The translations under genes and the position numbers were made by a program. The notes beneath the pieces are model-generated. The model saw only the letters and a program-made list of their open reading frames with translations. It ran no database searches and was not told the DNA's origin. Source: Pseudomonadota bacterium (lineage in GTDB: Bacteria > Desulfobacterota > JAPLJL01). Taken from it: a stretch of 40,438 nucleotides of DNA. The stretch spans positions 1-40,438 of the forward strand of contig JAPLJI010000177.1 of the NCBI GenBank assembly GCA_026388655.1. The letters are read 5' to 3'. Of this stretch, positions 17,626 through 39,806 are shown in pieces (the stretch's first letter is position 1; each line of letters begins with the position of its first letter).

Positions 17626-17651
17626 AATTACTTTAAGGGCCGGCCCGGAAT

Positions 17652-17694: not shown

Positions 17695-17725
17695 GATATA
17701 ATTTACTTTAGGAGAAGAAGGTTAA

Positions 17726-17797: not shown

Positions 17798-17803
17798 GAA
17801 TCT

Positions 17804-18052
17804 ATGAAGAAGGTTAAATCAGAAGGATTGCGGCCTGAGTATAGCCGGGAGGAACTGGGCCCGGGCGTCCGGGGCAAATACCTTGTCGATTACCGGAAAG
17901 GGACCAATCTGGTTCTTCTCCGTCCTGATGTAGCCAAAGCGTTTCCTACTGAAGAAGCCGTTAATAACGCCTTGCGCTCTCTGATGAATATTGCCCAGAG
18001 AACAGTAAGTTCATCCAAACGCCCGAACGGACGGGCTTCGGCCCGCCGCTGA
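17804..18052 (+). CDS. Small protein of a toxin-antitoxin-associated family (possible antitoxin)
   Basis: The 82-residue protein reads L-R-P-E-Y-S-R-E-E-L-G-P-G-V-R-G-K-Y, then G-T-N-L-V-L-L-R-P-D-V-A-K-A-F-P and V-N-N-A-L-R-S-L. I know this pattern from small proteins that sit beside toxin genes (BrnT or PIN-like), where they act as probable antitoxins; the family has no settled name. It starts seven bases after the BrnT remnant, as in an intact pair, which supports the reading. It may be a surviving antitoxin whose toxin was deleted. The C-terminus ends in a basic tail (K-R-P-N-G-R-A-S-A-R-R). Confidence 0.6.
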   Translation: MKKVKSEGLRPEYSREELGPGVRGKYLVDYRKGTNLVLLRPDVAKAFPTEEAVNNALRSLMNIAQRTVSSSKRPNGRASARR

Positions 18053-18111
18053 ATCTTTGAGAAGAATGAAAGGAAGCATTAGAACAATTTAATTCAGAGT
18101 CGGAGGCGGGA

Positions 18112-18567
18112 ATGAAAACGAATGTGGATGTCAAAGTCAAAGTAAAACGCAAGTATAAGTTCGAGGGGGAGGAATACGGCTCGATCGAGGATCTGCCCGC
18201 CGAAGGTCAAGCGGCCTTTAAAAAAGCGGTGCCTTCGGGATCCGAACGGGTCCAACAGTCAGACCCGAAGGCAGGCCAGACCAAGATCGTGTATAAAGGC
18301 CAGGAATACGATCTCAATGATTTGCCCCCGATTGTTCGGAAGGTATACGAAAAATTGATGGAGAAATCCCAAAAGGAAACGGGAGCTCCCGAAGACTCCA
18401 CCCCCCTGGAAATCGGGGATCTCCCGGAGCCGACCGCGGATATCCAGGCGGAGGAGATGTCAACCGAACCCATTAACCCGACGGCAACTTCCCCGGCCGC
18501 AAGGTTTGTTCTCATTCTGCTCGCCCTGGGGGCGATTATTTTCCTTTTTTACTTTCTGCGCCGCTAG
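18112..18567 (+). CDS. Tail-anchored protein with two short sequence repeats
   Basis: The 151-residue protein has a predicted C-terminal transmembrane segment (R-F-V-L-I-L-L-A-L-G-A-I-I-F-L-F-Y-F-L) two residues from the end and no signal peptide, so it should sit in the inner membrane facing the cytoplasm. Residues 14-40 and 59-83 are related repeats: Y-K-F-E-G-E-E-Y-G-S-I-E-D-L-P and I-V-Y-K-G-Q-E-Y-D-L-N-D-L-P-P. A proline/glutamate-rich linker joins them to the anchor. Function unknown. GGAGG precedes the ATG. The TAG stop lies at the TA of an IS630-type end that begins at 18565, so the element may have supplied or replaced the original end of the gene. Confidence 0.65.
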   Translation: MKTNVDVKVKVKRKYKFEGEEYGSIEDLPAEGQAAFKKAVPSGSERVQQSDPKAGQTKIVYKGQEYDLNDLPPIVRKVYEKLMEKSQKETGAPEDSTPLEIGDLPEPTADIQAEEMSTEPINPTATSPAARFVLILLALGAIIFLFYFLRR

Positions 18568-18718
18568 GGTAGTGTCTCAATAACTGCTTTGCCGCAGTTA
18601 AACCCGAAAAATGCGATTGGATCCATTCCTTCGTCATTTGCCAGCGGGATTTTTTGTAGTCTGCCGATTCATCGGCGGGTTTCAAAATCGCCCGATAAAT
18701 CGGGCAACTACGAAACGC
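18565..18718. repeat. Extra IS630-type left end and REP units
   Basis: The segment begins TAGGGTAGTGTCTCAATAA, which aligns with the other TA-bounded ends in the window. It continues with a hairpin (AACTGC-tttgcc-GCAGTT, 18585-18602). TTAAACCCGAAAAATGC at 18598-18614 is mirrored at 18959-18974. A palindromic unit follows near 18652-18714 (TTGTAGTCTGCCGATTCATCGG...CCCGATAAATCGGGCAACTACG). A relative of the latter is the terminator at 29421-29446. Confidence 0.55.
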
Positions 18719-18946
18719 TAATGTCGTGTCCCTCAAAATGCTTTCATAATATAGATACTCAAATAATGAAGTCATTGCGAGCGGACCTGTCCTCCGAAGC
18801 CTTGGCGTAGGGGGAGCGAAGCAATCTCATCCGCCCGGCTCGACGTAAAATAAGCAAAGTCGTAGAGATTGCTTCGTCGCCGGAAGCTTCTCGCAATGAC
18901 CCTAATGGTTTTTTATTATTGAATGTATTTTCGGGACACCACACTA
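18719..18946. mobile_element. MITE-like element with IS630-type ends (copy 1)
   Basis: The element is about 228 bp, bounded by TA, with imperfect inverted ends: TAATGTCGTGTCCCTCAAAA on the left, and on the right, read inward, TAGTGTGGTGTCCCGAAAAT. Similarity of the ends continues for about 30 bases (both reach ...CAATAATA or CATAATA). It encodes no protein. Its core at 18771-18900 is a GTCATTGCGAG...CTCGCAATGAC inverted repeat. The ends match the IS630-like end at 1-140 and the element at 25536-25770. Confidence 0.65.
18771..18900. repeat. GTCATTGCGAG palindromic repeat (copy 1)
   Basis: The unit starts GTCATTGCGAGCGG and ends TTCTCGCAATGAC. Inner arms GAAGCAATCTC and GAGATTGCTTCG are also inverted. 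The second copy is at 20975-21058. Repeats of this kind are widespread in bacterial genomes. Confidence 0.8.
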
Positions 18947-19063
18947 GGAGATAACAGCAGCATTTTTCGGGTTAAAATCTCCGATATCAATTATGTAAGG
19001 GCGGCCTTCCACGGCCGCCCGGGGAAGGAGCCCATAAAGGGCTCCCCTACGAAATAAATATTA
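18947..19063. repeat. GGCGGCC...GGCTCCCC palindromic unit upstream of uvrC
   Basis: 18995-19050 holds two adjacent hairpins: GGGCGGCC-ttccac-GGCCGCCC and GGAGCCC-ataaa-GGGCTCC. They end 14 bases before the uvrC start codon, in the place where a leader would be. The stretch before them carries GCATTTTTCGGGTTAA (18959-18974), which mirrors 18598-18614. Confidence 0.55.
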
Positions 19064-20926
19064 ATGGTGGAGAAACTCGAAACCAAAACGGAGACGGTTG
19101 AATCCCTCGATCTGACTCAGGATAAGCCCCAGGTCTCCCTGGAACAGGTGCCCGAGCGGACCGGGGTCTACCTCTTCCGCGACGGGAAGGGAAAAGTCCT
19201 CTACGTCGGCAAGGCCCGGGACCTGAAAAGCCGGGTGAGAAATTACTTCACCGGAGAGGACTCCCGCCCTTCGGTGCGGTATCTCACCCCCAAGATCCGC
19301 GGGGTCGAGTGGATCGTCACCGCCAACGAGACCGAAGCCCTCATCCTCGAAGACAACCTGATCAAGAAATTCAAGCCGCGCTACAACATCCGGCTCCGTG
19401 ACGACAAATCCTTCGTCAGCCTGGTCCTGACCGCCGGGGAGAAATTTCCCCGCCTTTATGTGGGCCGGTCGCGGATGACGCCGGAGAAGGACAGCTTGAT
19501 TTTCGGCCCATATCCCTCGGCCGATTCCGCCCGGGAGGCGCTGAAGCTCATCCGGAAAATCTTTCCTTTTCGAACCTGCAAAACGAGCCAGTTCAAGAAC
19601 CGCGCGCGCCCCTGCCTCAATTACGAGATCGGGCTCTGCCTCGGCCCCTGCGGCGGGAAGGTCGGGGAGGCGGAATACGCCCGGATCATCCGCGAGGTGA
19701 AGGTCATCCTTTCCGGGAGGGGGGAGGAACTCGTCGGCAAGTTAACCCGGGAGATGCGGGAGTCCTCGCGGGAGCTGAACTATGAGAAAGCCGCGGTTCT
19801 CCGCGACCGGGTCCAGGCCCTGGAAAAAATCCTGATCCGCCAGCGGCTTTCTTCCCCGCGCCTCTCGGACCGGGACGTGATCGGCTTCCACCGGGAAGGC
19901 AACCTCGCGGCGGTGGTGGTCTTCTCCGTGCGGGGCGGGAAGCTCAACCAGTCAGAACCCTATTCCTTCCAGGGGGTGAGGATCGGGGACGCGGAGCTCC
20001 TCGGCTCGTTTCTTTCCCAGTATTATCATCCGCCCCGGGAAATCCCCCCGGAGATCATCTTGATGATCGAGCCCGAGGACCGGGCCATGCTGGAGGGGTA
20101 CCTTTCCGAAAAAACCGGGGGCCGGGTGAGGGTCGGCGTGGTCAACCGTCCGCCCCGAAAATCTCTTCTCCATCTGGCCCGGGAAAACGCCCGGGCCTTT
20201 TCCCTGAGCATTCTTTCCCAGGGAAGCGGGAAACCCCTCAAGACCGTCCAGGACGCGCTCCGTCTTCCGCGCCTCCCCCGCCGGATCGAGGCTTTCGATC
20301 TTTCCCACCTTTCCGGCTCCAACGCGGTGGGGGCGATGGTGACTTTCCGGGACGGGGAGCCGGATAAGGACAACTACCGCCGCTTCCGGATCAAGGAAGC
20401 CTCCGGGCAGGATGACCTGGCCATGCTTTACGAGGTGGTTACCCGCAGGTTCCGGCGCCTGAAAGAGGAAGGAAGCGATTTCCCCGACCTGGTCCTGATT
20501 GACGGCGGCCGGGGCCAGCTCCAGGCGGCCGAGAAAGCCCTAGCTGACCTCGGGGTCACTCCGCCGCCGCTCGCGGCCCTGGCCAAAGGCCGGACATATA
20601 ATAATAAGGAAGAGGGTATCTACCTGCCCGGGCGGAAGAACCCCCTGCGCCTGAAAGCCCGCCATCCCGCCCTCCGGTTCCTGGACCGGATCCGGGACGA
20701 AGTCCATCGCTTCGCCATCGCCTACCAGAGGAAAAGCCGGAAACTGGCCCTGGAAACGGATCTTGACCGGCTTCCCGGGATCGGCCCGGCCCGCCGTAAG
20801 GCTTTACTCCAGCATTTCGGGAGCTGGGAGAAGATCAAGGAAGCGACGGTTGAGGAGTTGTCCGAGGTTTCCGGGCTGAGTCCTGAACAAGCCGAAAGGA
20901 TTTATCAGAAGATCCGAAGTAAGTAA
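19064..20926 (+). CDS. uvrC: Excinuclease ABC subunit C
   Basis: At 620 residues this is a full UvrC, the nuclease that makes both incisions in nucleotide excision repair with UvrA and UvrB. The GIY-YIG domain begins near residue 29 (T-G-V-Y-L-F-R-D...L-Y-V-G-K-A-R-D-L-K-S-R-V). The cysteine group C-L-N-Y-E-I-G-L-C-L-G-P-C lies near 185-197. The UvrB-binding UVR motif (L-N-Y-E-K-A-A-V-L-R-D-R-V) lies near 240. The RNase H-like domain includes I-E-A-F-D-L-S-H-L-S-G and V-L-I-D-G-G-R-G-Q-L. The C-terminal helix-hairpin-helix pair has L-P-G-I-G-P-A-R-R-K-A-L-L near 570. The first 24 residues extend beyond the usual start. No good ribosome binding site is seen. It is monocistronic, flanked by repeats. 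Confidence 0.96.
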   Translation: MVEKLETKTETVESLDLTQDKPQVSLEQVPERTGVYLFRDGKGKVLYVGKARDLKSRVRNYFTGEDSRPSVRYLTPKIRGVEWIVTANETEALILEDNLIKKFKPRYNIRLRDDKSFVSLVLTAGEKFPRLYVGRSRMTPEKDSLIFGPYPSADSAREALKLIRKIFPFRTCKTSQFKNRARPCLNYEIGLCLGPCGGKVGEAEYARIIREVKVILSGRGEELVGKLTREMRESSRELNYEKAAVLRDRVQALEKILIRQRLSSPRLSDRDVIGFHREGNLAAVVVFSVRGGKLNQSEPYSFQGVRIGDAELLGSFLSQYYHPPREIPPEIILMIEPEDRAMLEGYLSEKTGGRVRVGVVNRPPRKSLLHLARENARAFSLSILSQGSGKPLKTVQDALRLPRLPRRIEAFDLSHLSGSNAVGAMVTFRDGEPDKDNYRRFRIKEASGQDDLAMLYEVVTRRFRRLKEEGSDFPDLVLIDGGRGQLQAAEKALADLGVTPPPLAALAKGRTYNNKEEGIYLPGRKNPLRLKARHPALRFLDRIRDEVHRFAIAYQRKSRKLALETDLDRLPGIGPARRKALLQHFGSWEKIKEATVEELSEVSGLSPEQAERIYQKIRSK

Positions 20927-25770: not shown

Positions 25771-25957
25771 GGAGGCTGGGAGGCAAGAAAGCGGGGATGT
25801 TGGATTTAACATGAGCGATTTATCCAATTTATCTCGAGCGAATGCGAGGGAAGCGAATACGAGAGAATCCGAAGGGCAGGATTCAAAATTCTTCGACTTC
25901 GGACTTCGGACTTTTTAGCCTGGCAATGGTACTGGGCTTGTGATAATTTTTTAAACA

Positions 25958-26800
25958 ATGGAGCGCGAGCGGACAATTGCGAAGACCGTCAGCGTTTCCG
26001 GGATCGGACTGCATTCCGGCGCGAACGCCCGCTTGACCCTGAAACCCGCGCCCCCCGGGAGCGGAATTGTTTTTTTCCGTTCCGACCGTGCCCCGGCCCT
26101 GCCGATTCCGGCCCGAATTGATTTCGTGAGCGATGACCGTTTTGCCACCACCCTCTGCCGGGACGGGGTGGAGGTAGCCACCGTGGAACATTTTCTGGCC
26201 GCGGTCTATGGCCTCGAGGTGGATAATCTCGAAGCCTGGATCGAAGGCCCGGAGATTCCGGCCGGGGATGGGAGCGCACGGCTTTTCGTGGAGCTTTTAA
26301 CCGAGGCGGGAGTCGAACTTCAGGGCCAGCCCCGGCCGGTTTTTTCCGTTCCTCGCCCGCTGGAGGCGGTGAATCACGAAGCCAGAATCATCGCCTGCCC
26401 GGAAGCGGGAGCGAATCTTTTTCTGGAGTTCAAGATCGCTTATCCCCATCTCCAGATTTCCGAGCAGACCTTTCAGATCAAACTTTCCCCCGGGGATTTC
26501 CGCCGCGAGATCGCCTCCGCCCGCACTTACGGTTTTTTGGAGAATCTGGCCGGACTGGAGGCGGAGGGTAAGGGCAAGGGGGGATCACTTGCAAACGCGA
26601 TCCTGATAAGTAATGGTAAAATAATAAATCCGGAAGGCCTGCGCTTTCCGGAAGAGCTGGTTAGGCACAAAATTCTGGATCTGATCGGGGATCTGGCCCT
26701 TCTGGGGCGGAGGATCTCCGGGAGGGTGGCGGCGCAATACTCCGGGCATTTTCTGAATCACCAGCTAGTCCGGGAAATGTCCAAAATCATGAAGCCGTGA
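25958..26800 (+). CDS. lpxC: UDP-3-O-acyl-N-acetylglucosamine deacetylase
   Basis: LpxC is the zinc enzyme that commits UDP-acyl-GlcNAc to lipid A synthesis, in the cytoplasm. The 280-residue protein has the expected two-domain layout and length, though it is shorter at the C-terminus than the enterobacterial form. The zinc ligands are visible: His78 in V-E-H-F-L-A-A-V-Y-G-L, and His237 and Asp241 in R-H-K-I-L-D-L-I-G-D. The general acid His264 lies in S-G-H-F-L-N-H. The N-terminal T-V-S-V-S-G-I-G-L-H-S-G motif is also typical. These positions are within one residue of the E. coli numbering. No fabZ or other lpx gene is next to it; ccsA follows after a repeat array. Its presence shows that the cell makes LPS. 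Confidence 0.95.
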   Translation: MERERTIAKTVSVSGIGLHSGANARLTLKPAPPGSGIVFFRSDRAPALPIPARIDFVSDDRFATTLCRDGVEVATVEHFLAAVYGLEVDNLEAWIEGPEIPAGDGSARLFVELLTEAGVELQGQPRPVFSVPRPLEAVNHEARIIACPEAGANLFLEFKIAYPHLQISEQTFQIKLSPGDFRREIASARTYGFLENLAGLEAEGKGKGGSLANAILISNGKIINPEGLRFPEELVRHKILDLIGDLALLGRRISGRVAAQYSGHFLNHQLVREMSKIMKP

Positions 26801-26811
26801 GGCGTTAAAAG

Positions 26812-26930
26812 TTGTCCATAGTGTTCGTAGGGTTCATAGGGTCCGTAGTGTCAAGAGAGAAGAATGAATCCGATTAACTTTTCAGACACGATGGACACGA
26901 TAGACACGATAGACACAATGGACCTGTTTT
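26812..26930. repeat. Facing short-word arrays (GTCCATAGTGT / ACACGATGGAC type)
   Basis: The plus strand reads GTCCATAGTGTTCGTAGGG, TTCATAGGG, TCCGTAGTGTC at 26814-26850. Near 26886-26925 it reads GACACGATGGACACGATAGACACGATAGACACAATGGAC as nearly repeated words, the approximate inverse. The arms frame about 35 bases. The second arm ends just before the ccsA start codon. Confidence 0.7.
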
Positions 26931-26933
26931 AAA

Positions 26934-27725
26934 ATGGATTCACAATTTTTTCTCCTCATCGCCCTGGTTTTGTTCTCCGGGCTCTTCCTGGCGGCGGTTT
27001 TCATCCGTCCCGAGCCGGGGCGGTCAGGTTATCTCTGGTTCCGGATCGGACTTTTCCTGGCGGTGATAATCTTAAGCCTCGGGATCGGGCTGTGTTCCTT
27101 CGAATCCGGGCATCTTCCCCTGACCAATCTTTATGAATCCCTGCTGATTTTTGCCTGGTTTTTAAGCCTGACCCCGCTGGCTTTCAAAAAACTGCCGGTT
27201 TCCCTGGTCCGTTTCGCCTTGTTGCTGGCCGTGGCCGCCCTCCTTTCCGCCAGTCTTCTTCCACAGCGTTTCACCGTTCCCGCGCCCCTTTTGCCGGCCT
27301 TGAAAAGCCACTGGCTGGCTTTTCACGTCCTGACCTGTTTTTCGGCTTATTCCGCCTTTGCCGTCGCTTTTGGATCCGCCCTGCTTTACCTGGTTCCTTC
27401 CTTCCGGGGTTCACTTTCCTTGGAGACCCTGGAGACCATCACCACCACCGCGATCTCCCTGGGATTTCCGCTTCTGACCATCGGGATCGTGACCGGCGCG
27501 GTCTGGGCCAACCAGGCCTGGGGAACCTACTGGAGCTGGGACCCCAAGGAGACCTGGTCGCTGATTACCTGGCTGATCTACGCGGCCTTTCTCCACGCGC
27601 GTTTCGCCCGGGGGTTCCGCGGGCGCCGGTCCGCCCTGCTGGCGGTTTTTGGATTTATCTCCGTGGTCTTCACTTACCTGGGGGTGAATCTCATTCTCTC
27701 CGGCCTGCATTCTTACGCTTCCTAA
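26934..27725 (+). CDS. ccsA: Cytochrome c assembly protein, CcsA/ResC type
   Basis: The 263-residue membrane protein has about eight hydrophobic segments. The heme-handling tryptophan-rich motif reads W-A-N-Q-A-W-G-T-Y-W-S-W-D-P-K-E-T-W-S-L-I-T-W near residues 187-209. It closely matches the WWD motif of CcsA/ResC, which delivers heme for covalent attachment to apocytochromes c outside the cytoplasmic membrane. Histidines that could serve as heme ligands lie in transmembrane parts (S-H-W-L-A-F-H near 120, L-H-A-R near 220, L-H-S-Y near the end). The HemX relative of this family shares the fold but usually lies beside hemA, which is not seen here. No ccsB/resB is adjacent. No clear ribosome binding site is seen, since a short-word array occupies that position. 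Confidence 0.87.
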   Translation: MDSQFFLLIALVLFSGLFLAAVFIRPEPGRSGYLWFRIGLFLAVIILSLGIGLCSFESGHLPLTNLYESLLIFAWFLSLTPLAFKKLPVSLVRFALLLAVAALLSASLLPQRFTVPAPLLPALKSHWLAFHVLTCFSAYSAFAVAFGSALLYLVPSFRGSLSLETLETITTTAISLGFPLLTIGIVTGAVWANQAWGTYWSWDPKETWSLITWLIYAAFLHARFARGFRGRRSALLAVFGFISVVFTYLGVNLILSGLHSYAS

Positions 27726-27794
27726 GAGTCCTTCCCGTCGGCCTGACCCGCTTTTCGTCAGCCATTTCTGCCAAATGAGACTTTTTTCTTTTTT

Positions 27795-27947
27795 GGGGGG
27801 GTGGGTTTCGCTCCGCGCACAATAGGTGCATACTGCAATCACGGCAGGCTGACCCGCAGGGCCTAGCCAGTATCGAGGAATACTTTGTCGTCGAGTTTAT
27901 CGTAACCTGTTTACTAAGAGTGCCCGTTGCGAGAACCCACCCCCCCG
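27795..27947. repeat. GGGGGTGGGTTTCGC element (copy 1)
   Basis: The element starts GGGGGGGTGGGTTTCGCTCC, followed by GCGCACAATA, and ends AAGAGTGCCCGTTGCGAGAACCCACCCCCC. Start and end are inverse to each other over about 12-15 bases (GGGTGGGTT/AACCCACCC). The middle is only loosely like copy 2 at 38036-38203 (shared GCAGGGCCT.GCC). It has no coding capacity and fills the gap between ccsA and the outer-membrane protein gene. The remainder, 27948-28078, is TTGAACTTT/TTGAGCTTTG short-word sequence. Confidence 0.7.
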
Positions 27948-28078
27948 GGCTTCGATGCAATCAAAAACTTCATTTTTGAGTTTTGTCATTTGAACTTTAT
28001 TTGGCATTTGAGCTTTGATATTTGTCATTAGATAAGGATGGGATTGCCAAAATCGCGTGATATTGATAGAAATAAAAC

Positions 28079-28744
28079 ATGGATAAAAAAATAATATCCC
28101 TAATGTTGGCCCGGCTTACCCGAAAAGCGGCGGCCGTCCTGATCGCCGGGGTTTTTCTGCTTCTACCCGCGCTGGCCCGTTCCGAATATGTCGGAGGGGA
28201 GGGGAAGAGCAAACCCGGGCTCCAGGTTTCAATCGAGCCGGTTTTCGGCTTGACCAAGCGGGAGATGAGCGGAGACAGCGGGTCGTTGACCTCTCTGCGG
28301 TTTTTTCTCCGTCCCACCTTTAAAATTTATGACCGGATCGCTTTTTACGCGGATATCGGCGCGGCCGATTTCCACCAGGGCGGGGTAGACGGGGCCCTGG
28401 GTCTGCTCGCGGGCGGAGGAACCAAGATCTTCATTATCAACCATAACCAATACATAAATCTCTATCTCGACGGCCAGTTTTTAACCTTTCCTTCGACCGT
28501 GGGCGATGAAAGCCACCGCTTTTTCGCCTACCAGTTTTCCGGGATCCTCTCGCACCAGGAGAACAACTGGAATATTTACGCCGGTCCGAAATACGCCCAG
28601 CTGCAAAACGGCGCCCACGCGGATCAAAAGGTCGGGATCGTGATCGGGATGGATTACTCGGTTACCCCCATGGTCTTTTTTACCGCCGAAATGCACAACT
28701 TCACCGATGACGCCCTCTACATGGGGGTGGGGTATCGTTTCTAG
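28079..28744 (+). CDS. Predicted outer-membrane beta-barrel protein
   Basis: The 221-residue protein begins with a signal peptide (V-L-I-A-G-V-F-L-L-L-P-A-L-A-R-S, cleavage near residue 36). After that it alternates polar and hydrophobic residues in strands of 8-12 and ends G-V-G-Y-R-F. A terminal phenylalanine is the usual recognition signal for the BAM complex. An eight-stranded OmpX/OmpA-like barrel would fit the size. The substrate or role is not evident. A start at residue 9 (M-L-A-R-L) is also possible and would give a shorter n-region. No ribosome binding site stands out. The next gene starts 36 bases downstream in the same direction. Confidence 0.7.
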   Translation: MDKKIISLMLARLTRKAAAVLIAGVFLLLPALARSEYVGGEGKSKPGLQVSIEPVFGLTKREMSGDSGSLTSLRFFLRPTFKIYDRIAFYADIGAADFHQGGVDGALGLLAGGGTKIFIINHNQYINLYLDGQFLTFPSTVGDESHRFFAYQFSGILSHQENNWNIYAGPKYAQLQNGAHADQKVGIVIGMDYSVTPMVFFTAEMHNFTDDALYMGVGYRF

Positions 28745-28780
28745 CCTTCCGGATTTTCAGCCCGTTCCGGGTTTTGAGAC

Positions 28781-29365
28781 ATGCTGAAGGAAGAAGACGT
28801 AAAAAGCTTAGAAGACCGGATCAATATCCTGAAAAAGGATTACGATCTCTTCCTGGCCGGGATCCTTAAGCTTGAGCCGGTAAAAGGCCGGGAGGATCTC
28901 GGCAAGTGGATCCGCGGCCATACCGCTTCGGAGATCACCAATTCCTCCCTCCGTTTCAAATACAATTCGCTGATTGCGAAATTCAACTCCCTGAAGAACT
29001 TCTGGGACCGGATGGTGCGGATTCGGGATGAGAACAAGGCCAAGCTTTCCGCCCGGAAAGCCGCCCAGACGCCCCCGGTGGCCGCGGCGGCGGCGCCTCC
29101 GCCACCCCGGCCGGAGGGTTTCGTTTTCCGATCCCTGGAGGAGAAAGAGCTCGAGGCCAAGGCCCGGAAGGTCTTCGAGGATTTTACCGCCGCCCGGAAG
29201 AAGACCGGGGAAGGGGCGGGGCCGGATTTTTCCCGGTTTAAAACCACGATTGAGAAAAGACTGCAGGAACTATTTTCCCGCGCCCCCGACAGCGAAGTGG
29301 AATTCAAGGTCGCGGTTGAAGAAGGCAAGGTCAAGCTCAAGGCCGTGGCCCGGACGAAGTCCTAA
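28781..29365 (+). CDS. MXAN_5187 C-terminal-domain-like protein
   Basis: The 194-residue protein begins V-K-S-L-E-D-R-I-N-I-L-K-K-D-Y-D-L-F-L-A-G-I-L-K-L-E-P, followed by I-T-N-S-S-L-R-F-K-Y-N-S-L-I-A-K-F-N-S-L-K-N-F-W-D-R. This pattern recalls the C-terminal domain of the Myxococcus MXAN_5187 family, where the repeated N-T-x-L-R-F-R-F and Y-x-x-W-x-R pieces form helices. A proline/alanine linker (about 86-105) leads to a second helical piece ending in strands (V-E-F-K-V-A-V-E-E-G-K-V-K-L-K). It is cytoplasmic by composition. The role is unknown; family members often sit with regulators or motility genes, which are not seen here. Confidence 0.65.
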   Translation: MLKEEDVKSLEDRINILKKDYDLFLAGILKLEPVKGREDLGKWIRGHTASEITNSSLRFKYNSLIAKFNSLKNFWDRMVRIRDENKAKLSARKAAQTPPVAAAAAPPPPRPEGFVFRSLEEKELEAKARKVFEDFTAARKKTGEGAGPDFSRFKTTIEKRLQELFSRAPDSEVEFKVAVEEGKVKLKAVARTKS

Positions 29366-29424
29366 GACACTCCCTATAATCGACCGCCGACCGCCGTCAA
29401 GGAAAATCTTAATACTTCGTAGTT

Positions 29425-29446
29425 GCCCGATTCATCGGGCTTTTTT
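29425..29446 (+). terminator. Intrinsic terminator formed by a REP-like unit
   Basis: GCCCGA-ttca-TCGGGC followed by TTTTTT is a standard rho-independent terminator about 60 bases after the MXAN_5187-like gene. It belongs to the same palindrome family (CGTAGTTGCCCGATTCATCGGGC) as 18652-18714, so a repeat seems to serve as terminator. A GTCATCCTGAGC...GAAGGATCTCGG unit follows at 29499-29529. Confidence 0.75.
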
Positions 29447-29546
29447 ATTTGGAGCGCATCGGCTTGTTTATCCTGAGCCCAGTCGAAGGGCTGATGCAGT
29501 CATCCTGAGCTGTAGGCGAAGGATCTCGGTTTTTTCTGTTTTCTGC

Positions 29547-31013
29547 TTACTGGCGTTTAGCGCTCCTGCGTCCCAGCTTAATCAATCCCAGTAAAACAAT
29601 CAGCAGTATGGCTGGCTGATCGGCCCCGGCCGGGAAGTTCTGGCAACCCTCGGTTCGCGGAGAAGGTTCCTCGCCGGAGCCGTTTTGCAGCCGGGCTCGA
29701 ATCCAGGGGGCATAGGTTTTCGAGTCGATATCGGAGATGGCGATTTCGGTCGTTCCGAAAGGAGAGATGAGCTCGGTGAAGAGAAAGAGCTGGGAGGGAC
29801 CCAGGCGGTCGCCGGTCTGGAATAGGTCGCGGGGATCCAGCCAGCTCTGCCGGGTCAGGAAATCGAAATTGCCGTCGGCAGGGATGTTCATGATCAGGGG
29901 ATGATTTTCATCCCGGTTGACTCCCCCGGAAATCCATTCCGGGAAGGAATCGGATTCACCTTCCCGGGGGAGCATTTGCTGAGCCACCCGGTAAACCGCG
30001 AGGCCCCGGGACTCGATCCGGCGGTCCCAGAGCGGGAGCCGTCCCCGGTTCTCCACCAGGAAATACCCGGAGCCATCACCCAGGCGGAAAATGTATCTTC
30101 CCTCCGGAGCGGGAGGGATCCTGACCTCCTCCGCTCCCTGGATTAAATACTCCTCGGCCCAACCGACCGCGAGGCGGCTGTCAGCGTCCAGGAGGGGGAT
30201 ATCGCAAATATTTTCATCACTGCAATAAGCGCCCATCAGCGAATAGAGCAGGCCGTAAGAGCTCCGGTCGGGATCGGAAAGTTCGGCGAAGCCCAGAAGA
30301 TGGCCAAACCCATGAAGGAGGGCCGCGTCATTCCGGGTGTAGTCTCCATCGGGCGGGAGGGAGTTGTCCACGATCGTGACCGCGTTGATCCGGACGGGTC
30401 CGGTGATGATTTCGGGGGCCAGCAGGGAAAGGGGAAAGGTGGCTTCCGCCGAGATCCCGTTCTGGGTGAAGAGCAACCCGTCGATCCAGCCGTCCGGGAG
30501 GCCGGCGGGGCCGTTCAGGTCGAAACGGGAGAGGTCAAAATTATACTTTTTCAGATCGCGTATTCTTTTTTCCACAATCGGGAGCCAGACAGAGGTGATC
30601 CCGGCCGGGGAGGTGACCCGGCAGCTCGAGAGGTCAAGGCCGGGGAGGGGGCAGGAATAAAGGGTAATCGGGTCCAGGACCTGAGCCTCGACCTCGAAAA
30701 GACCCCGGGAATTGTCCCGGAAATATCCGGCAAAGGTGGGGACGTCCTCCCGAATGGGCCCGAAGAAGCGTTTCAGGTGCTCGACATTCTGGGGCGGAAG
30801 ACCGGGGAGGGCGAAGTCCACCGGGATTACCAGGACCCGGCTTTTCCCGCGATTCGGAACCTTGACCGGGCCGATGTCGTCTTTTTGGGCGAACTGATCC
30901 ATAAACCCCGCAAAAACAGGTGAAAGGTGGAAGGTCAAGGGTGAAAGGAAAAAGGTGAAAAGTGAGAAGATAAAAACGGGAAAGAAAATGAAGATCAAAA
31001 TAGATTTCCTCAC
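29547..31013 (-). CDS. M6-like peptidase homologue with a degenerate zinc motif
   Basis: The 488-residue secreted protein resembles immune-inhibitor-A (M6) peptidases. The region includes S-R-V-L-V-I-P-V-D-F, F-G-P-I-R-E-D-V-P-T-F-A-G-Y-F-R-D-N-S-R-G and the zinc site L-L-H-G-F-G-H-L-L-G-F-A-E. The family motif is H-E-x-x-H; here the catalytic glutamate is glycine (codon GGG), so hydrolysis is unlikely although both histidines remain. A later S-L-M-G-A-Y-C segment corresponds to the Met-turn. The C-terminus has a hydrophobic segment followed by R-R-S-A-K-R-Q, like a sorting signal that leaves the protein membrane-held. The signal peptide (residues 16-35) is encoded by a short-word DNA array. 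Either a binding pseudo-enzyme or a recent lesion. Confidence 0.7.
   Translation of the reverse strand: MRKSILIFIFFPVFIFSLFTFFLSPLTFHLSPVFAGFMDQFAQKDDIGPVKVPNRGKSRVLVIPVDFALPGLPPQNVEHLKRFFGPIREDVPTFAGYFRDNSRGLFEVEAQVLDPITLYSCPLPGLDLSSCRVTSPAGITSVWLPIVEKRIRDLKKYNFDLSRFDLNGPAGLPDGWIDGLLFTQNGISAEATFPLSLLAPEIITGPVRINAVTIVDNSLPPDGDYTRNDAALLHGFGHLLGFAELSDPDRSSYGLLYSLMGAYCSDENICDIPLLDADSRLAVGWAEEYLIQGAEEVRIPPAPEGRYIFRLGDGSGYFLVENRGRLPLWDRRIESRGLAVYRVAQQMLPREGESDSFPEWISGGVNRDENHPLIMNIPADGNFDFLTRQSWLDPRDLFQTGDRLGPSQLFLFTELISPFGTTEIAISDIDSKTYAPWIRARLQNGSGEEPSPRTEGCQNFPAGADQPAILLIVLLGLIKLGRRSAKRQ
30911..30968 (-). repeat. Short-word array used as signal-peptide coding sequence
   Basis: On the plus strand this is a run of GGTGAAAGG, TGGAAGG, TCAAGGG, TGAAAGG, AAAAAGGTGAAAAG words like those at 25327-25366. 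Read on the minus strand it codes for F-S-L-F-T-F-F-L-S-P-L-T-F-H-L-S-P-V-F-A, the hydrophobic core and cleavage region of the M6-like protein. Confidence 0.7.
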
Positions 31014-31066
31014 CAGAAACCCGAAACTACAAACTCGAAACTTTTTATTTCCCGTTTTGGGAAATA

Positions 31067-31152
31067 TGCCGGGGACGGGAATCGAACCCGTACTCCACTT
31101 GCGCGGAAAGGGATTTTAAGTCCCTTGTGTCTACCGTTTCCACCACCCCGGC
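31067..31152 (-). tRNA. tRNA-Leu (UAA anticodon)
   Basis: On the minus strand the 86-base gene folds as a type II tRNA. The acceptor GCCGGGG pairs with CCCCGGC before discriminator A. The D arm has GGTGGAAACGGTAGAC. The anticodon stem AGGGA/TCCCT carries the loop CTTAAAA, hence UAA. A long variable arm follows, and the T arm reads CGGGTTCGATTCCCG. The CCA end is not encoded. Its first 40 bases are repeated exactly at 35039-35078, so the DNA now upstream of the gene (31153 onward) appears to be inserted and would have to supply its promoter. Confidence 0.95.
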
Positions 31153-31341
31153 AGTGCCTTATGGGCAGTTTCAAATTTATTCGAATTGCGGGAGTGATTC
31201 AATAGGAACTTACAGATTTCCAATATCGGTAATCTTTATCTGAAATTTAGAAAAGCAATAAGCAGACCGTCTCCCCCTAGATCACACAAGCCCTCATTTC
31301 AATTTCATCCCTAAAATTTGATGCCCGAGCCGGAAATGTCA

Positions 31342-31360
31342 AATGTCAAGGGCTGACCCC
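31342..31360 (-). repeat. Dispersed 19-bp motif GGGGTCAGCCCTTGACATT
   Basis: This is the inverse of the copy at 13593-13611, with all 19 bases identical. It is followed by a second TTTGACATTT. Similar GGGGTCAG...TTGACATT sequences often border small transposase genes, but none is seen at either site. Confidence 0.6.
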
Positions 31361-31412
31361 GCCGGTGTCCTTCAAAAAGCAAGGAACAAGCTCTGGTCCT
31401 ATTAGCTGGATT

Positions 31413-31910
31413 CTATATTATGGCCATGCGCGTCTTGTCCCACCCCTCGCTATAGGGCGAATGGAAATTCCACAAAAAGCCGAAATGGCTTATCTTCCAT
31501 TTATTTTCAACCCTTACAAATTCCATATCATACCTGCCGTGGCCCCACATTGCCCTTGCTATACAGCTTGTCTCCAGAAGATAGAATATCCCTGTTGCTC
31601 TGTCTCCATCGATATCAATAACCGGATTTAGAATAAGGTGTGATGCTGAGAAGAGATCTTTTTTATGAACCATGAGACGATAAAAACTTTCTATTTCTTC
31701 TTTACCATTACACTCAAACGCAAAGTTACCCTCACCCTCTTTAACCTCGCCTCTCACCCTGACATCCATGACAGCATCTTCTGTAAAGCATTCAATTACC
31801 TTATCCACTTCGCCGTAGTCCAGCCAGTAGGTGTAGTTAAATATGAGCTTTTTAATATTTTCGATATCCTCAAGCATCTTGATTCTTTTCTCAAGACTTT
31901 TGTCTGACAT
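31413..31910 (-). CDS. SnoaL/NTF2-like fold protein
   Basis: The 165-residue protein starts with a helix (L-E-D-I-E-N-I-K-K-L-I-F-N-Y) leading to Y-G-E-V-D-K-V-I-E-C-F-T-E-D-A-V, the signature of SnoaL_4-type polyketide cyclase or dehydratase-like small enzymes. Later come S-A-S-H-L-I-L-N-P-V-I-D-I-D-G-D-R-A-T-G and W-K-I-S-H-F. Such proteins bind a hydrophobic ligand in a cone-shaped pocket and may act as isomerases, dehydratases or cyclases; the reaction cannot be told. GGAGG lies six to eight bases before the ATG. It is the first visible cargo gene of the tRNA-Leu island, 123 bases downstream of the SDR gene in the same direction. Confidence 0.75.
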   Translation of the reverse strand: MSDKSLEKRIKMLEDIENIKKLIFNYTYWLDYGEVDKVIECFTEDAVMDVRVRGEVKEGEGNFAFECNGKEEIESFYRLMVHKKDLFSASHLILNPVIDIDGDRATGIFYLLETSCIARAMWGHGRYDMEFVRVENKWKISHFGFLWNFHSPYSEGWDKTRMAII

Positions 31911-32033
31911 ATTAGCCTCCAGATTTTTATATAGCTTCTTGTAAGTGAGCGCTGCTTTCGAAAAAAAATATTTAATTATTGAAAAATTTCAAAGTTTACT
32001 ATATGACTTTGTCAGTCAGAAAATTAAACGTAA

Positions 32034-32849
32034 TTACCGATCCTCTCTAAATTTTGAATATGCCCACGCCCCGCCATAACCGATAATCCGTGCAGCCCGG
32101 GGAGAAATGCGTTTTAGGGCGTAAGCAGACCTGCCGAGCCCGGTAATAACCATGCTCCGGTTTCGCTTTACCGCATGTATAATTCTTTTTGATATTCTTT
32201 CCGGTGATAATCCCAGAAAAGCCGGCATGTTTCTAACCCCGGATCGGAATCCCTTTATCTTCAAAGATTTAAAAATATTTGTCTGAACAACCCCGGGACA
32301 TACTACGGTTACGCCGATATTATATCTGTTGAGTTCAACGCGAAGCGCCTCGGAAAGGCCCATAATGCCGAACTTCGCCGCAGAATATGCGCTGTTGCTC
32401 GGTTGCCCGAGCAGTCCCATCCATGAAGATAAATTGACAATGTGTCCGCTTTTGCGTTCAATCATGCCCGGAACAAGATAGTGCAATGCATAAACAGGTC
32501 CCCAGAAATCCACTCCCATCAGCCATTCCCAGTCGGAGAGATCGGTATCCGCAAAATCGGCATAAAGGGCAACGCCGGCATTGTTCACCAGAATATCAAC
32601 CCGTTTATGATTTTCTATAGCGACTCTGCACAGCCTTTCTACATCGTTTCTATTGCCGATGTCAGCTATTACCGGCAAGACCTCCCTTCCTAAAGATTTT
32701 ACCTGCTCTACTGTTGCCATGAGGGTGTCTTTATTTATATCTGTTATTACAAGGTTTGCGCCCTCTTTCGCAAACTGCACCGCGAGTGCCTGTCCGATAC
32801 CGCTTGCGGCGCCCGTGACCAGGACAACCCTGTCTTTTATAGTTCTCAT
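32034..32849 (-). CDS. Short-chain dehydrogenase/reductase
   Basis: This 271-residue classical SDR has the cofactor motif V-T-G-A-A-S-G-I-G at residues 11-19. An acidic residue after the second strand (I-T-D-I-N) suggests NAD(H) preference. The I-L-V-N-N-A-G-V motif and the catalytic S-S-W...Y-S-A-A-K set with Tyr and Lys four apart are present. The C-terminal 45 residues form a basic helical tail (R-I-S-P-R-A-A-R-I-I-G-Y-G) of the kind seen in SDRs that associate with membranes and lipid substrates. The start is firm, with GGGAGGTAG before the ATG. It is probably cotranscribed with the hypothetical gene 17 bases upstream. Pairing with a SnoaL-like protein suggests a small oxidoreduction/dehydration pathway, possibly on a steroid or polyketide-like compound; that is inference. 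Confidence 0.88.
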   Translation of the reverse strand: MRTIKDRVVLVTGAASGIGQALAVQFAKEGANLVITDINKDTLMATVEQVKSLGREVLPVIADIGNRNDVERLCRVAIENHKRVDILVNNAGVALYADFADTDLSDWEWLMGVDFWGPVYALHYLVPGMIERKSGHIVNLSSWMGLLGQPSNSAYSAAKFGIMGLSEALRVELNRYNIGVTVVCPGVVQTNIFKSLKIKGFRSGVRNMPAFLGLSPERISKRIIHAVKRNRSMVITGLGRSAYALKRISPRAARIIGYGGAWAYSKFREDR

Positions 32850-32866
32850 GAACTACCTCCCGAAAT

Positions 32867-33211
32867 CTAGCGTTTCTGTATAATTTTCTGGCAGGGTTTT
32901 ATCATTGCTTCGTTCATGTTCTTGGTGATCTCTTTTCTCACCGCAGGTATTTTTGTCAGGGGTATCATTATTAAATTAAGCAGGATACTTTTAACGTCCT
33001 TGTACGGGAGATCGTAACGCCTGTTCTTCTTGTGATGCATGTGATCATCGGGCATGATAAAGCGGAGTTTTTCCCAGGTAAGGTCCCGTATTGTTTTATG
33101 TATGCCCAGGCCGAGAAAAGTTACCGGCTTGGTGTACTTTTGCCGGGAGGGCACAAGGCCCTTGTATACGGGATAAGGACCATAAAACAAGATCTGCACC
33201 CAAGCTTTCAT
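32867..33211 (-). CDS. Hypothetical basic protein in SDR operon
   Basis: From the ATG at 33211 (GGGGAA eight bases before it) the protein has 114 residues. A GTG at 33238 would add nine residues without a ribosome binding site. The sequence, M-K-A-W-V-Q-I-L-F-Y-G-P-Y-P-V-Y-K-G-L-V-P-S-R, is rich in lysine and aromatic residues. It has an H-M-H-H-K-K-N-R-R-Y cluster near the middle and a helix, L-N-L-I-M-I-P-L-T-K-I-P, towards the end. I know no family. It ends 17 bases before the SDR start, so the two are cotranscribed. The positive charge and amphipathic segments would suit membrane association. It could also be a decayed piece of a longer gene. Confidence 0.5.
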   Translation of the reverse strand: MKAWVQILFYGPYPVYKGLVPSRQKYTKPVTFLGLGIHKTIRDLTWEKLRFIMPDDHMHHKKNRRYDLPYKDVKSILLNLIMIPLTKIPAVRKEITKNMNEAMIKPCQKIIQKR

Positions 33212-33463
33212 CAATGATTTCCCCGAACGTGGAATCACTTGCCGGGGACGTTATATCTATATATTATATATTGTCTGATTGCAAGCTAAATTTTTTGAGT
33301 TTTAGCTCAAAAGATTATTTGACTGAATAGTTTTGGTGAATTATTAATTTGATAAATTATTTGTTTTATGATATTTTCCCCTGTCTTTTTCCGCTGCCGA
33401 CAAATATGTTTCTTTTTTTAATTTTGGAGTAATACCGTCTAAATAAAATAAGAGGAGGTGACC

Positions 33464-34765
33464 ATGAAAGCCACTGTATGCGTTACGGAAATCCGAGGGA
33501 ATCTCAGGGAAGCAATCCGAAAATGCTTTGATGCCTTTGGGGGGATCGACCGTATTTGCAAGGGGGAGGTCTTCATCAAGATCAATGCGCTCATGCCGGA
33601 CTTGACGGCCATGACGGACATCGATGTGATCCTGGAGACGGTCGCTCTGGTCAAGGAGGCACGACCCCAGCCGAAGAAGATTTACGTCTTTGACAGTGCT
33701 GCCGTCGGCTTTACTACTCGTGTTGTTTATATGATGGGAGATCTTGCGAAACGGATTAAGAAACTGGGGGCCATACCCCTGTACCTGGACGAGCAGCCGT
33801 CTGTCGATTTGGATTTCCGGGGAAAGGCATTGGACTATCCTGTGCCGATTCCAAGAATCCTGCATGAGAAACTGATTCTTCACAAGAATGAGAATACCTA
33901 TATCAATATTCCAAAACTCAAATGCCACATCCAAGCCCAGATGACGGCTTGCCTGAAGAATCAACACGGCCTGCTCTACAACAAGGAAAAGGCCTACAAT
34001 CACCACATGATCCATGAAAAGGTCGTTGAAATTTACAGAATGTTTAAGCCCGATTTCAACCTGGTGGAAGCGACTACCGTAACCAATCACGGCAACTTCG
34101 CCTATACGCCGGACTGGGCTATAAAATACGACCTCCTCCTGGCCGGAACCGATGCCGTGGCCGTCGACAGCGTGGGGGCAAGGTTGATGGGTTTTGACGG
34201 TCGGGAAATAGGGCACTTGAAAATTGCCCATGAGCAGGGGCTGGGAACGTGTTTGTATGATGAGATTGAAGTCATTCCGGACCGTTCACTTGTCGAGAAG
34301 AAGAAAAGGAACTTGAACAACCAGCTCGCCCAGGTCCCGATGCAGGCTTCGAAAGGCGTGGTCTTTATCGGGGGCAAAGAACGTTGTTGCGTTGCAGGGT
34401 GCGGATACGTCGAGTTCTGGACCAAGTACATCACGACCAGCGCGAAGAGCAAGCCCTTTGTGGCCGTTGTGGGAAAAGGCCACGACACCGCTGAACTGGA
34501 TAAATATCAGGGCCCATTCTTTGTCAATGGTCCCTGTGCGATACGCGAATTGAAAAGTTACTTCGAGCGACGCAAGGAAAAAGACCGCAAGCTCAAGGTT
34601 ATCTATGTGAATGAGCATTTCGACCTGATTCGGTCAATGATGGGCGTCATGAAAGCGGGACAAGTTTCGATGAAGGGCGCGATGAGCATGCTCAGGATTC
34701 CCATGGGAAAGATGATTATCGGCCTTACCTTGTCCATGGTTCATGGGTCTCGATACAAGACGTAG
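33464..34765 (+). CDS. DUF362 protein
   Basis: I start at the ATG at 33464, six bases after a strong AGGAGG, giving 433 residues. The sequence follows the DUF362 domain of iron-sulfur-associated proteins: V-F-I-K-I-N-A-L-M-P near residue 36, Y-I-N-I-P-K-L-K-C-H near 145, the M-T-A-C-L-K-N-Q-H-G motif, and A-G-T-D-A-V-A-V-D-S-V-G-A-R-L-M-G near 225. A second part from about residue 290 holds a cysteine pair (E-R-C-C-V-A-G-C-G) and ends in a hydrophobic-basic tail. The function is not established; related genes occur in anaerobes and near ferredoxins. It is transcribed away from the SDR operon from a shared AT-rich intergenic region (33239-33457), so a divergent control region is likely there. 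Confidence 0.75.
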   Translation: MKATVCVTEIRGNLREAIRKCFDAFGGIDRICKGEVFIKINALMPDLTAMTDIDVILETVALVKEARPQPKKIYVFDSAAVGFTTRVVYMMGDLAKRIKKLGAIPLYLDEQPSVDLDFRGKALDYPVPIPRILHEKLILHKNENTYINIPKLKCHIQAQMTACLKNQHGLLYNKEKAYNHHMIHEKVVEIYRMFKPDFNLVEATTVTNHGNFAYTPDWAIKYDLLLAGTDAVAVDSVGARLMGFDGREIGHLKIAHEQGLGTCLYDEIEVIPDRSLVEKKKRNLNNQLAQVPMQASKGVVFIGGKERCCVAGCGYVEFWTKYITTSAKSKPFVAVVGKGHDTAELDKYQGPFFVNGPCAIRELKSYFERRKEKDRKLKVIYVNEHFDLIRSMMGVMKAGQVSMKGAMSMLRIPMGKMIIGLTLSMVHGSRYKT

Positions 34766-35249
34766 TCGGAGATCAAAGTTTTCTTCTGGAAGCGTTATAA
34801 GAATCAGGCGGTCCGGCGGTCCGATGGTTATGGTTTGGATGCAATCACCATCGATACAGCTATCACAAGACCTGTAATCGCTGTTTTATCATATGAATAA
34901 ACTTCGCTAATTGCCCGGCTTTAGGCCATTCCCGTTCAGATGTTGATAGGAATTTTCTTTCCGGCCTGGTCAATATGCTTGTGGGGAATTAAGAATTTAC
35001 CAAGAAAGTTGAATGGTTAGTGGATCACAGCATAAAGAATTTTAAGTCCCTTGTGTCTACCGTTTCCACCACCCCGGCCGTATATTTAAAATTATAACAA
35101 TTTATTAGAATCTTTAAAATTTTCCCGTCTTTTAACGTCTGAGTTACGGTAATTTTAACCACAGGGATTACGAGCAATATGGAATTTGAAGCCGGTATTT
35201 GCAGACATGCTTTGACTTGAAAGGGGTTTGGTTTTAATCTGCTGGTTAA
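34766..35249. other. Gene-free end of the island, with right attachment copy
   Basis: 35039-35078 is the exact copy of the first 40 bases of the tRNA-Leu gene. The sequence inside (34766-35038) has no gene I can support; a few codons on the minus strand near 34930-35005 look protein-like but are too short to name. 35079-35249, outside the repeat, would be the original upstream region of the tRNA and begins TATATTTAAAATTATAAC, AT-rich as a promoter would be. Confidence 0.55.
35039..35078 (-). repeat. attachment-site copy of the tRNA-Leu 5' half
   Basis: Identical over 40 bases to 31113-31152 and in the same orientation. Identity stops one base before and immediately after. It contains the acceptor strand, D arm and anticodon arm but lacks the variable arm, T arm and 3' acceptor strand, so it cannot make a tRNA. 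Confidence 0.9.
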
Positions 35250-35723
35250 ATGGACAAGAAAATATCTGAACCAGCAACCGGCGATTTACTGACCCGCGAG
35301 GAGAAGCAACTGGCCGGGCTGATGCGCCTGTGGTCCGTTCTCTTCGGCCTGATGGGATTATTTTTTATCATTTCCCCCCAGATTTTTACCGAATTCCTGA
35401 ACCGATTCAGCCACCTGCTCTCCGGAGGCAACTACATTTCCTTGCCTTATCCCGCGGAGCGTTTCTGGTATTCCTTGACTGTATCCCTGATGGCTACGAT
35501 CACTTACCTGTCTTTCGTCGCTTCCCGGGATATTCGTCGGAATTTTCATTGCGTGATCGCGGTTTTGATCTGCAAGTTCACTTCCACGCTGTTTTTTCTT
35601 CTTTCCTTTGCTACCGGGCTCCGGTCGGCCGGATACCTGGTCTCCGCCCTGCTCTCGGACGGGCCGATCTTTTTGATCACCCTGGTTTTCGTCGTCAGGG
35701 CAATAAGGAGCAGGGTGAAGTAG
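35250..35723 (+). CDS. Small four-helix membrane protein, hypothetical
   Basis: The 157-residue protein has about four transmembrane segments: L-W-S-V-L-F-G-L-M-G-L-F-F-I-I near residue 30, W-Y-S-L-T-V-S-L-M-A-T-I-T-Y-L near 75, V-I-A-V-L-I-C-K-F-T-S-T-L-F-F-L near 105, and G-P-I-F-L-I-T-L-V-F-V-V near 140. The hydrophilic N-terminus of about 25 residues probably faces the cytoplasm. No catalytic or binding motif is seen and I recognise no family. It is the first gene outside the right boundary of the island and its base composition returns to that of the chromosome. The ATG lacks a clear ribosome binding site. Confidence 0.6.
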   Translation: MDKKISEPATGDLLTREEKQLAGLMRLWSVLFGLMGLFFIISPQIFTEFLNRFSHLLSGGNYISLPYPAERFWYSLTVSLMATITYLSFVASRDIRRNFHCVIAVLICKFTSTLFFLLSFATGLRSAGYLVSALLSDGPIFLITLVFVVRAIRSRVK

Positions 35724-36166
35724 GCAAAGGGCATAGGGCTGGGCGCAAAAGCAAAAAGCCTAAGAGCAAAAAGACAAAAGAGAGATCCTTCACTTTGTTC
35801 AGGATGACACCTTTGATGATTGCAGCATCAGCAAGCTGATGCACTCCATATAAGACTCAGACAATCGGCATTAAGGAGTTTGCGTGCCCCGCCAGAGGCG
35901 TGGGGGTCGCGAGAACCCACCCCCAGGGCTTCTAAAAACCAAAGAAGAAAAAGAATGTTATGGAGTGAAATAGCTTGCTATTTCAGAGCACCAGACAGAC
36001 CAGAAAAAGCGAGATCCTTCTCCCGCCAGAGGCGGGATCAGGATGACAACTGCGCGGAGCGGAGCATCAGAAGCTGATGCGCTCCAAAGAAAGACCGCAT
36101 TAGCAAGCTAAGGTACTCCAAAATAGGGGCAGTCTTACCCCTATCTCCAATCTTCTATCTCCTGCT
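35724..36166. repeat. Repeat-filled gap
   Basis: 35730-35780 is a short-word array (GGGCATAGGG, GCAAAAGCAAAAAGCC, AAGAGCAAAAAGAC). 35781-35810 and 36011-36049 are GAGATCCTTC...AGGATGAC units; the second carries a CCCGCC-agag-GGCGGG hairpin. 35899-35935 is a partial end of the GGGGGTGGG element (GTCGCGAGAACCCACCCCCA), followed by AAAACCAAAGAAG words as at 38212. GCATCAG...CTGATGCGCTCC half repeats lie between them. Confidence 0.6.
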
Positions 36167-37924: not shown

Positions 37925-38035
37925 ATCGTAAGAGTTTTTTATCTTGGACAAGTTTAGGAAAGTTTAAAATTAAAAACCAGTCTTTGGTCTCTAGTCACCG
38001 GTTAATTGCAACTTGCTGCCGTTATTTTCTTTTTT

Positions 38036-38203
38036 GGGGGTGGGTTTCGCTCCCCGCACAATACCCGCGATCACGTAATCCCGGGCGGCGGGCCCGCCCC
38101 TCCGGGGCAGTCAGGGCCTCGCCTTCTCTAGAGAACTTCGAAGGTTCCTCGAGATTATTGGTGTCTGGTCTAAAAAGAGTGCGAGTCGCGAGAACCCACC
38201 CCC
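38036..38203. repeat. GGGGGTGGGTTTCGC element (copy 2)
   Basis: The 168-bp element begins GGGGGTGGGTTTCGCTCCCC, followed by GCACAATA, and ends AAGAGTGCGAGTCGCGAGAACCCACCCCC. The ends are inverse. The interior has its own GC-rich hairpins (GGGCGGCGGGCCCGCCCC) and shares GCAGGGCCT-type words with copy 1. The unit is directly joined to the satellite at 38212-38335, an order also hinted at by the partial copy at 35899. Confidence 0.7.
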
Positions 38204-38211
38204 AGGGTTTT

Positions 38212-38335
38212 CGAAAACCAAAGAAACCAAAGAAACCAAAGAAACTGAAGAAACCAAAGAAACTGAAGAAACCAAAGAAACTGAAGAAACCAAAGAAACT
38301 GAAGAAACCAGAGAAACTAAAGAAACCAGAAGAAT
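38212..38335. repeat. AAAGAAACC / AAAGAAACTGAAGAAACC satellite
   Basis: A tandem array of a 9-base word (AAAGAAACC) turns into an 18-base unit (AAAGAAACTGAAGAAACC) repeated about four times and then decays. Open frames through it encode only K-K-P-K-K-L repeats and are not genes. A GAGATCCTTC...AGGATGAC unit (38336-38388), inverse of 10603-10655, follows immediately. 38389-38562 has short-word CTAACG sequence and the ribosome binding site of the next gene. Confidence 0.85.
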
Positions 38336-38562: not shown

Positions 38563-39484
38563 ATGGAAGTTAAAGAACTCACCATGGGAAAACTGAACCC
38601 GAAAATATTCATTGAGGAAAAAATCAGGGAAATCGTCTCCACGGTTGAAAGCGGACTGGCGATCAACGCCCTTTCCGGCGGGGTGGACTCTTCGGCCGTG
38701 ACCATGCTCGGCCACCGGGCCCTGGGGGACAGGCTGAAAACCTATTTCATCGAAAACGGAATCATGCGGGAAGGCGAGGCCAAGCAGATCGTCGGCTGGT
38801 TCCGGTTTCCGGGGCCTGAAAGGGTTGACCGACCCGGAGGAAAAACGGGAAGCCATTACCCAGGCATTCTATAAAGATGTCTTCGGGCCGCTGGTGAAGA
38901 AAAGCGCGGCCCGCTTCCTCATGCACGGGACCAATTACACCGACATTGAGGAAACCGTGGCCGGGGTCAAGCGCCAGCACAATATCCTGGTCCAGCTCGG
39001 GATCGATACCGAGAAGGTTTACGGATACAAGGTGCTGGAACCGCTGAAGGATCTGCGCAAGCCGGCCGTCCGCAAGGTGGCCAAGGCCCTGGGTCTGCCG
39101 GCCGAGATCTACAACCGCCCGCCCTTCCCGGGCCCGGCCCTGGCGGCCCGGGTGATCGGGGAGGTGACCCCCGACCGGGTCAAGACCGTCCGGAAAGCCA
39201 CCCGGATCGTGGAGGAGGAACTGGCCGGGGTCAAATGTTTCCAGTACCTGGCGATCCTGCACCATGACCTGGTCACCGGCGTGCGGGGAGGAAAAAGGGA
39301 TTTCGGCCTCCAGGTCGAGGTCCGTTGCTGGGACAGCGAGGACGCGGTGACCGGCAGCCCCACCCGCCTGCCTTACCCGGTTTTGGAAAAGCTTGCCGAT
39401 CGGATTACTTCCGAGGTCCCGGGGGTGGTGAGCGTAGTTTACAACATCACCCGGAAGCCGCCGTCAACGATTGAAGCGGTCTAA
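38563..39484 (+). pseudogene. guaA: Stand-alone GMP-synthase-type ATP-pyrophosphatase (GuaA-like), disrupted
   Basis: The two frames together encode a protein of the GuaA ATP-pyrophosphatase type without a glutaminase domain, a class sometimes labelled ExsB-like. The first frame has the pyrophosphatase loop A-L-S-G-G-V-D-S-S and F-I-E-N-G-I-M-R-E-G-E. The second resumes at F-R-G-L-K-G-L-T-D-P-E-E-K-R and runs to the end: P-F-P-G-P-A-L-A-A-R-V, then K-P-P-S-T-I-E-A-V. At 38800-38815 about 14 residues expected between them are absent and the frame shifts. TTCCGG and TTTCCGG sit side by side at the joint, as after a deletion between short repeats. GGGGGAG precedes the ATG. It could complement or replace full GuaA, but as read it is not functional. 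Confidence 0.75.
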
Positions 39485-39806
39485 TATCGCAAAGCGCAAA
39501 GGGCAAAGCGCAAAGAGCAAAGCGCAAAGCGCAAAGAGCAAAGGCGGTAGCCGCAGCCTTTAGGCTGCGTGGTGGTTAGGTGGTTAGAAAGAAGGAGGCC
39601 GGGCGTCCCGCCTGGCTTGGCATCCTGTAGGGCAAGGTCAAGGCAAAGCGCAGAGCGCTAAGAGCCTAAAAATCAGGAAGCCTTCAAGCCGAAAGGCGAG
39701 ATTCTTCGCCAGAGGCTCAGAATGACATCTGCGCGGAGCGCAGTGTCAGAATGTCGGATGTTGGGTTAAACACCCGGCGCCATGCTCCGTGCCCTATGCT
39801 TTTTAG
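39485..39806. repeat. Short-word array and palindromic repeats
   Basis: 39486-39545 is a GCAAAGCGCAAAGGGCAAAGCG array. GGTAGCCGCAGCCTTTAGGCTGCG follows at 39546-39569 and a GGCCGGGCGTCCCGCCTGGC palindrome at 39597-39616. GAGATTCTTCGCC...GAATGAC at 39698-39726 is followed by CTGCGCGGAGCGCAG. I see no gene. Confidence 0.65.

Follow-up and report, generated by a model that had tools for sequence, protein, structure and literature searches.

The window analysed here, a stretch of 40,438 nucleotides from a 194-contig, 3.56-Mb MAG (G000), carries an intact tRNA-Leu(UAA) at 31066-31153 on the minus strand, called by ARAGORN as tRNA-Leu(taa) and consistent with the RNA fold and with synteny to a second genome of the same genus (G002; JAQTNV010000002.1, MAG STA_72). 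Bases 31113-31152 recur exactly and in the same orientation at 35039-35078, with 3.9 kb separating the two copies, and the 40-bp match grows to 48 bp at 94% identity when extended. The repeat is found twice in the window and never in 100 dinucleotide shuffles, and no further copy was found in the genome with up to 3 mismatches allowed, so that the bounding of a 3.9-kb interval by a copy of the tRNA-Leu 5' half, first proposed from a sequence-only reading of this DNA, is upheld. On the minus strand the repeat corresponds to tRNA bases 1-40, comprising the acceptor arm, the D arm and the anticodon loop, and the island therefore lies upstream of the tRNA; this placement agrees with the earlier statement that the copied part is the 5' half with the anticodon arm and not the 3' end. 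A pattern search of G000 found no second UAA-Leu tRNA, and as the only one found reading UUA, this tRNA is presumably essential.

Between the two repeat copies lie three intact reading frames and one pseudogene. Nearest the tRNA, beyond a non-coding gap of 260 bp (31154-31412), a 165-aa SnoaL_4 protein is encoded on the minus strand at 31413-31910 (Pfam PF13577, E 6.6e-26), with remote similarity to the bile acid 7a-dehydratase BaiE (PDB 4l8o, E 4.5e-4) and homologs at 62-66% identity in another family. It is followed on the same strand by a 271-aa short-chain dehydrogenase/reductase (SDR) at 32034-32849 (PF00106, E 2.4e-54), whose homolog (59%) adjoins a SnoaL homolog (62%) in the same order in genome G042 (L117/L113), where the contig is short and has no tRNA. 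The two genes thus form a pair, possibly serving a dehydrogenase/dehydratase step. The third gene, previously listed as hypothetical, is on alignment with its homologs a broken pseudogene of a flavodoxin-type/FMN-reductase-like protein of about 466 aa (32867-33245, minus strand): its open frame of 123 aa (32867-33238) has no Pfam domain and can be aligned to the homologs over their final ~90 residues only, and a frameshifted N-terminal scrap stands just upstream of this C-terminal part, with about 280 residues missing between them. The fourth, on the plus strand at 33458-34765, encodes an intact 435-aa DUF362 protein (PF04015, E 2.2e-27) with no close relative in the 59 genomes searched (best 33-35% identity) and no linkage to SDR or SnoaL found elsewhere in the genomes searched. 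The SnoaL gene and the FMN-reductase piece are absent from both G002 and G001, the two same-genus genomes available for comparison (three genomes of the family in all), a distribution by which the island cargo reads as foreign. The suggestion that the four genes make up a metabolic unit is not supported, given that one of them is a pseudogene and that only SDR and SnoaL are neighbours elsewhere, away from any tRNA.

The island has a GC content of 0.451, against 0.556 in the rest of the window, and self-repeats cover 0.05% of its bases. Its description as AT-richer and poorer in repeats than its surroundings is thus numerically correct; as marks of an island, both features are non-diagnostic, with a second stretch from about 10350 being equally AT-rich, the right flank (35079-36000) also being low in GC, and repeat scarcity being common to most of window positions 1-20000 (0.4-2.7%). 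Neither Pfam nor tblastn finds an integrase in the island, as had been noted, nor is an integrase remnant detectable there. A weak "integrase" match of one homolog (L054) at island positions 2092-2048 (E 0.025) was rejected, the same bases aligning in context with the FMN-reductase homologs.

The displaced repeat copy is directly preceded by a promoter on the minus strand (35079-35129; TTTAAA-16-TATAAT with an extended -10), and the same promoter-like sequence, TTTTAAAGATTCTAATAAATTG(T/C)TATAATTT, precedes the displaced half in both G000 and G002. This shared promoter before the displaced halves identifies the copy at 35039-35078 as the original 5' half of the tRNA gene, and we infer that the 5' half of the intact tRNA (31113-31152) was supplied by the element, the 3' half being chromosomal. 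The conserved position of the native promoter beside the fragment also confirms that the tRNA has been cut off from it, and the promoter is predicted to drive only a tRNA fragment now. No strong promoter for the rebuilt tRNA was found in the adjoining 260 bp; its transcription may come by read-through from the SDR-SnoaL direction or from a weak promoter, and the tRNA would in either case rely for its present promoter on transcription from the island side.

The same chromosomal site is also occupied in G002. There, a different island of about 131 kb, unrelated in content, lies between the same two flanks and beside the same tRNA: the left flank (window 25939-30978) and the tRNA are syntenic (a 72% identical M6-like protein and DNA matches), and the right-flank homologs adjoin, in the same order, a displaced half with its promoter ~131 kb from the tRNA. 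A tyrosine integrase of 346 aa (Pfam Phage_integrase, 4.4e-27; PHROG integrase, 8e-60) lies directly upstream of the tRNA and ends ~45 bp from its 5' end. The two 5' halves differ by a few bases in G002 and are identical in the window, and in both genomes copy-to-copy identity stops at, or one base past, the anticodon loop CTTAAAA. In addition to the integrase, the G002 island has genes for a primase-like protein and for Type III restriction-modification, the latter including a Type III-like pair at L034:9435-14893 (G002:C2:129435-134893); two stretches sampled from the island, of 11.3 and 20 kb, are for the most part not found in G000 or G001. No DNA shared between the two islands was found, which argues that the integrations in G000 and G002 were independent. 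The proposal that the four genes move as a block finds no support here, the same tRNA fragment enclosing wholly different DNA in G002, a situation that comes close to the fragment without the four genes that the sequence-only reading itself had named as evidence against it. No empty site was found: a scan of genome contigs with the left-flank protein matched only the G002 record, and the UAA-Leu tRNA is missing from the G001 assembly.

On the right flank, a search of 59 genomes found no relatives of a 157-aa gene. Further along, at window 38563-39484, a frame change and missing sequence interrupt a gene whose G002 homolog is one open frame of ~331 aa; we take the gene to be GMP-synthase-like, of the GuaA ATP-PPase type. 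Short dispersed repeats (window 35762-36049, 38025-38230 and 39489-39727; L033:1782-1933) are present in dozens of copies and are shared by the three genomes of the genus.

Homologs of the G002 integrase from 297 genomes of the phylum were examined for tRNAs beside them. Most lie at tRNA 3' ends and six face a 5' end; the six include the G002 integrase, the two relatives that score best against it, and an integrase of G000. In another family, the tRNA-Leu(UAA) of genome G045 has an exact 42-bp copy of its 5' half 29.6 kb away, and the intervening island (L125-L126; G045:C14:25001-65000) contains an integrase and the BREX genes BrxA, BrxC, PglX and PglZ; immediately upstream of this displaced half is a tRNA-Leu(CAA). 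Integrases beside larger islands, which had been anticipated, thus exist in G002, at this very site, and in G045, at tRNA-Leu(UAA). In a tree of 30 integrases (L036-L065), labelled by tRNA adjacency and with both island ends seen only for G002 and G045, those adjacent to 5' and 3' ends are intermixed, forcing at least three changes, so that use of the 5' end does not define one clade and the carried tRNA half seems to switch repeatedly in evolution. The close relatives L056 and L061 face opposite tRNA ends. At the cutoff used, G000 itself holds one moderately related integrase (37% identity, contig C117; L128), encoded near 7255-8088 and facing the 5' end of a tRNA-Arg(tct); this locus is possibly a second 5'-half island, on a contig that ends before a second att copy.

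These data support a model where the 3.9-kb region is what decay has left of an integrative genomic island, a reading to which we assign a probability of about three in four. As G002 and G045 both hold integrase-bearing islands bounded by the tRNA-Leu(UAA) 5' half, this half is, on comparative grounds, a real attachment site, with the crossover predicted at the anticodon loop. An element of greater size, encoding a tyrosine integrase, would have recombined at the 7-nt anticodon loop. Its copy of the 5' half would have restored the tRNA (31066-31153), and the original half would have been displaced, promoter included, 3.9 kb upstream to 35039-35129. Most of the element would later have been lost, including an integrase expected between the tRNA and SnoaL, leaving the SDR-SnoaL pair, the broken FMN-reductase gene and the intact DUF362 gene. 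We infer these losses from three features: the empty 260 bp next to the tRNA, where the 3' end of the integrase lies in integrase-bearing relatives; the pseudogene; and the islands of those relatives, with their integrases. The former presence of an integrase, the order of the losses and the present promoter of the tRNA are the conjectural parts of the model. What remains is probably unable to move by itself. Several points weigh against the remnant reading: the identity of the two 40-bp halves suggests a recent insertion with little time for decay, no trace of an integrase is detected, and no empty site occurs among the three genomes of the family.

An alternative is a non-autonomous mini-island that never carried an integrase and was mobilised in trans, by an integrase encoded on a co-resident island at the same tRNA 5' half. 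In its favour, the two att ends are preserved and match over all 40 bp, the genus contains integrases that use this site, and the SDR, SnoaL and DUF362 frames are intact. We nonetheless consider this origin unlikely: the FMN-reductase pseudogene indicates decay, the only related integrase of G000 at the cutoff adjoins the tRNA-Arg 5' end rather than tRNA-Leu, no second repeat-bounded unit is seen, and the G042 SDR-SnoaL pair has no tRNA nearby on its short contig. Its fullest form, a minimal integrase-free metabolic island with functional att sites that is moved in trans by integrases of larger islands sharing the site and has taken over the expression of an essential tRNA, is likewise unlikely. 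Local duplication or illegitimate recombination copying the tRNA 5' half upstream without an integrase would suit an island that lacks one, and is highly improbable given that the repeat runs from tRNA base 1 to the anticodon loop, as integrase sites do, that the native promoter remains with the fragment, and that the integrase-bearing islands of sister genomes are bounded in the same way. A chimeric join at a repeat short enough to mislead short-read assembly, conceivable in a MAG of 194 contigs and to that extent a further reservation about the remnant reading, is just as improbable, as the flanks match those of G002 on both sides, including the promoter and the right-flank gene order.

Overall, the locus most likely represents a worn-down remnant and not a novel type of mobile unit. 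Its significance lies in revealing that tRNA-Leu(UAA) is a recurrent target of integration, within its 5' half, in a poorly known bacterial genus: sister species carry independent islands there, of 3.9 and ~131 kb, and a genome of another family has a comparable one of 29.6 kb with BREX genes. Furthermore, an apparently single-copy tRNA loses its own promoter through such insertions, and how it stays expressed becomes a testable question.

Integration at the 5' half is uncommon but already known (PMC4383910, PMC8371274, PMC5495485). Among the 3919 islands of the Islander collection, 159 carry a 5' tDNA fragment, and 2083 sites are anticodon-centred (PMC4383910). The window resembles the 5'-fragment type of that collection (anticodon-centred 'A' sites, PMC4383910) in having an intact tRNA with an upstream fragment in the same orientation, its 3.9-kb island fits the Islander range of 2-200 kb, and the end of copy identity in both the window and G002 agrees with a crossover at the anticodon loop. 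Islander islands must contain an integrase; those of G002 and G045 do, whereas that of the window does not, and it is therefore filed as a remnant and not as a full island. In archaea, pTN3-like integrases use the 5' half, the tRNA then being expressed from the integrase promoter, an arrangement seldom met in bacteria (PMC8371274), and in pTN3 itself 41 bp of the tRNA-Leu 5' half are shared and the tRNA is separated from its promoter (PMC5495485). The window is thus comparable to pTN3/IntpTN3 of Thermococcus nautili (PMC5495485, PMC8371274) in that a tRNA-Leu 5' half is common to attP and attB and the tRNA is rebuilt without its original promoter. The pTN3 system is archaeal and its integrase gene is split by integration, whereas the element here is bacterial, the G002 integrase is unsplit and the window has none. 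The nearest counterpart compared here, the 131-kb island of G002, shares with the window the site, the tRNA half and the promoter at the displaced copy, and differs from it in its unrelated content and in the presence of an integrase.
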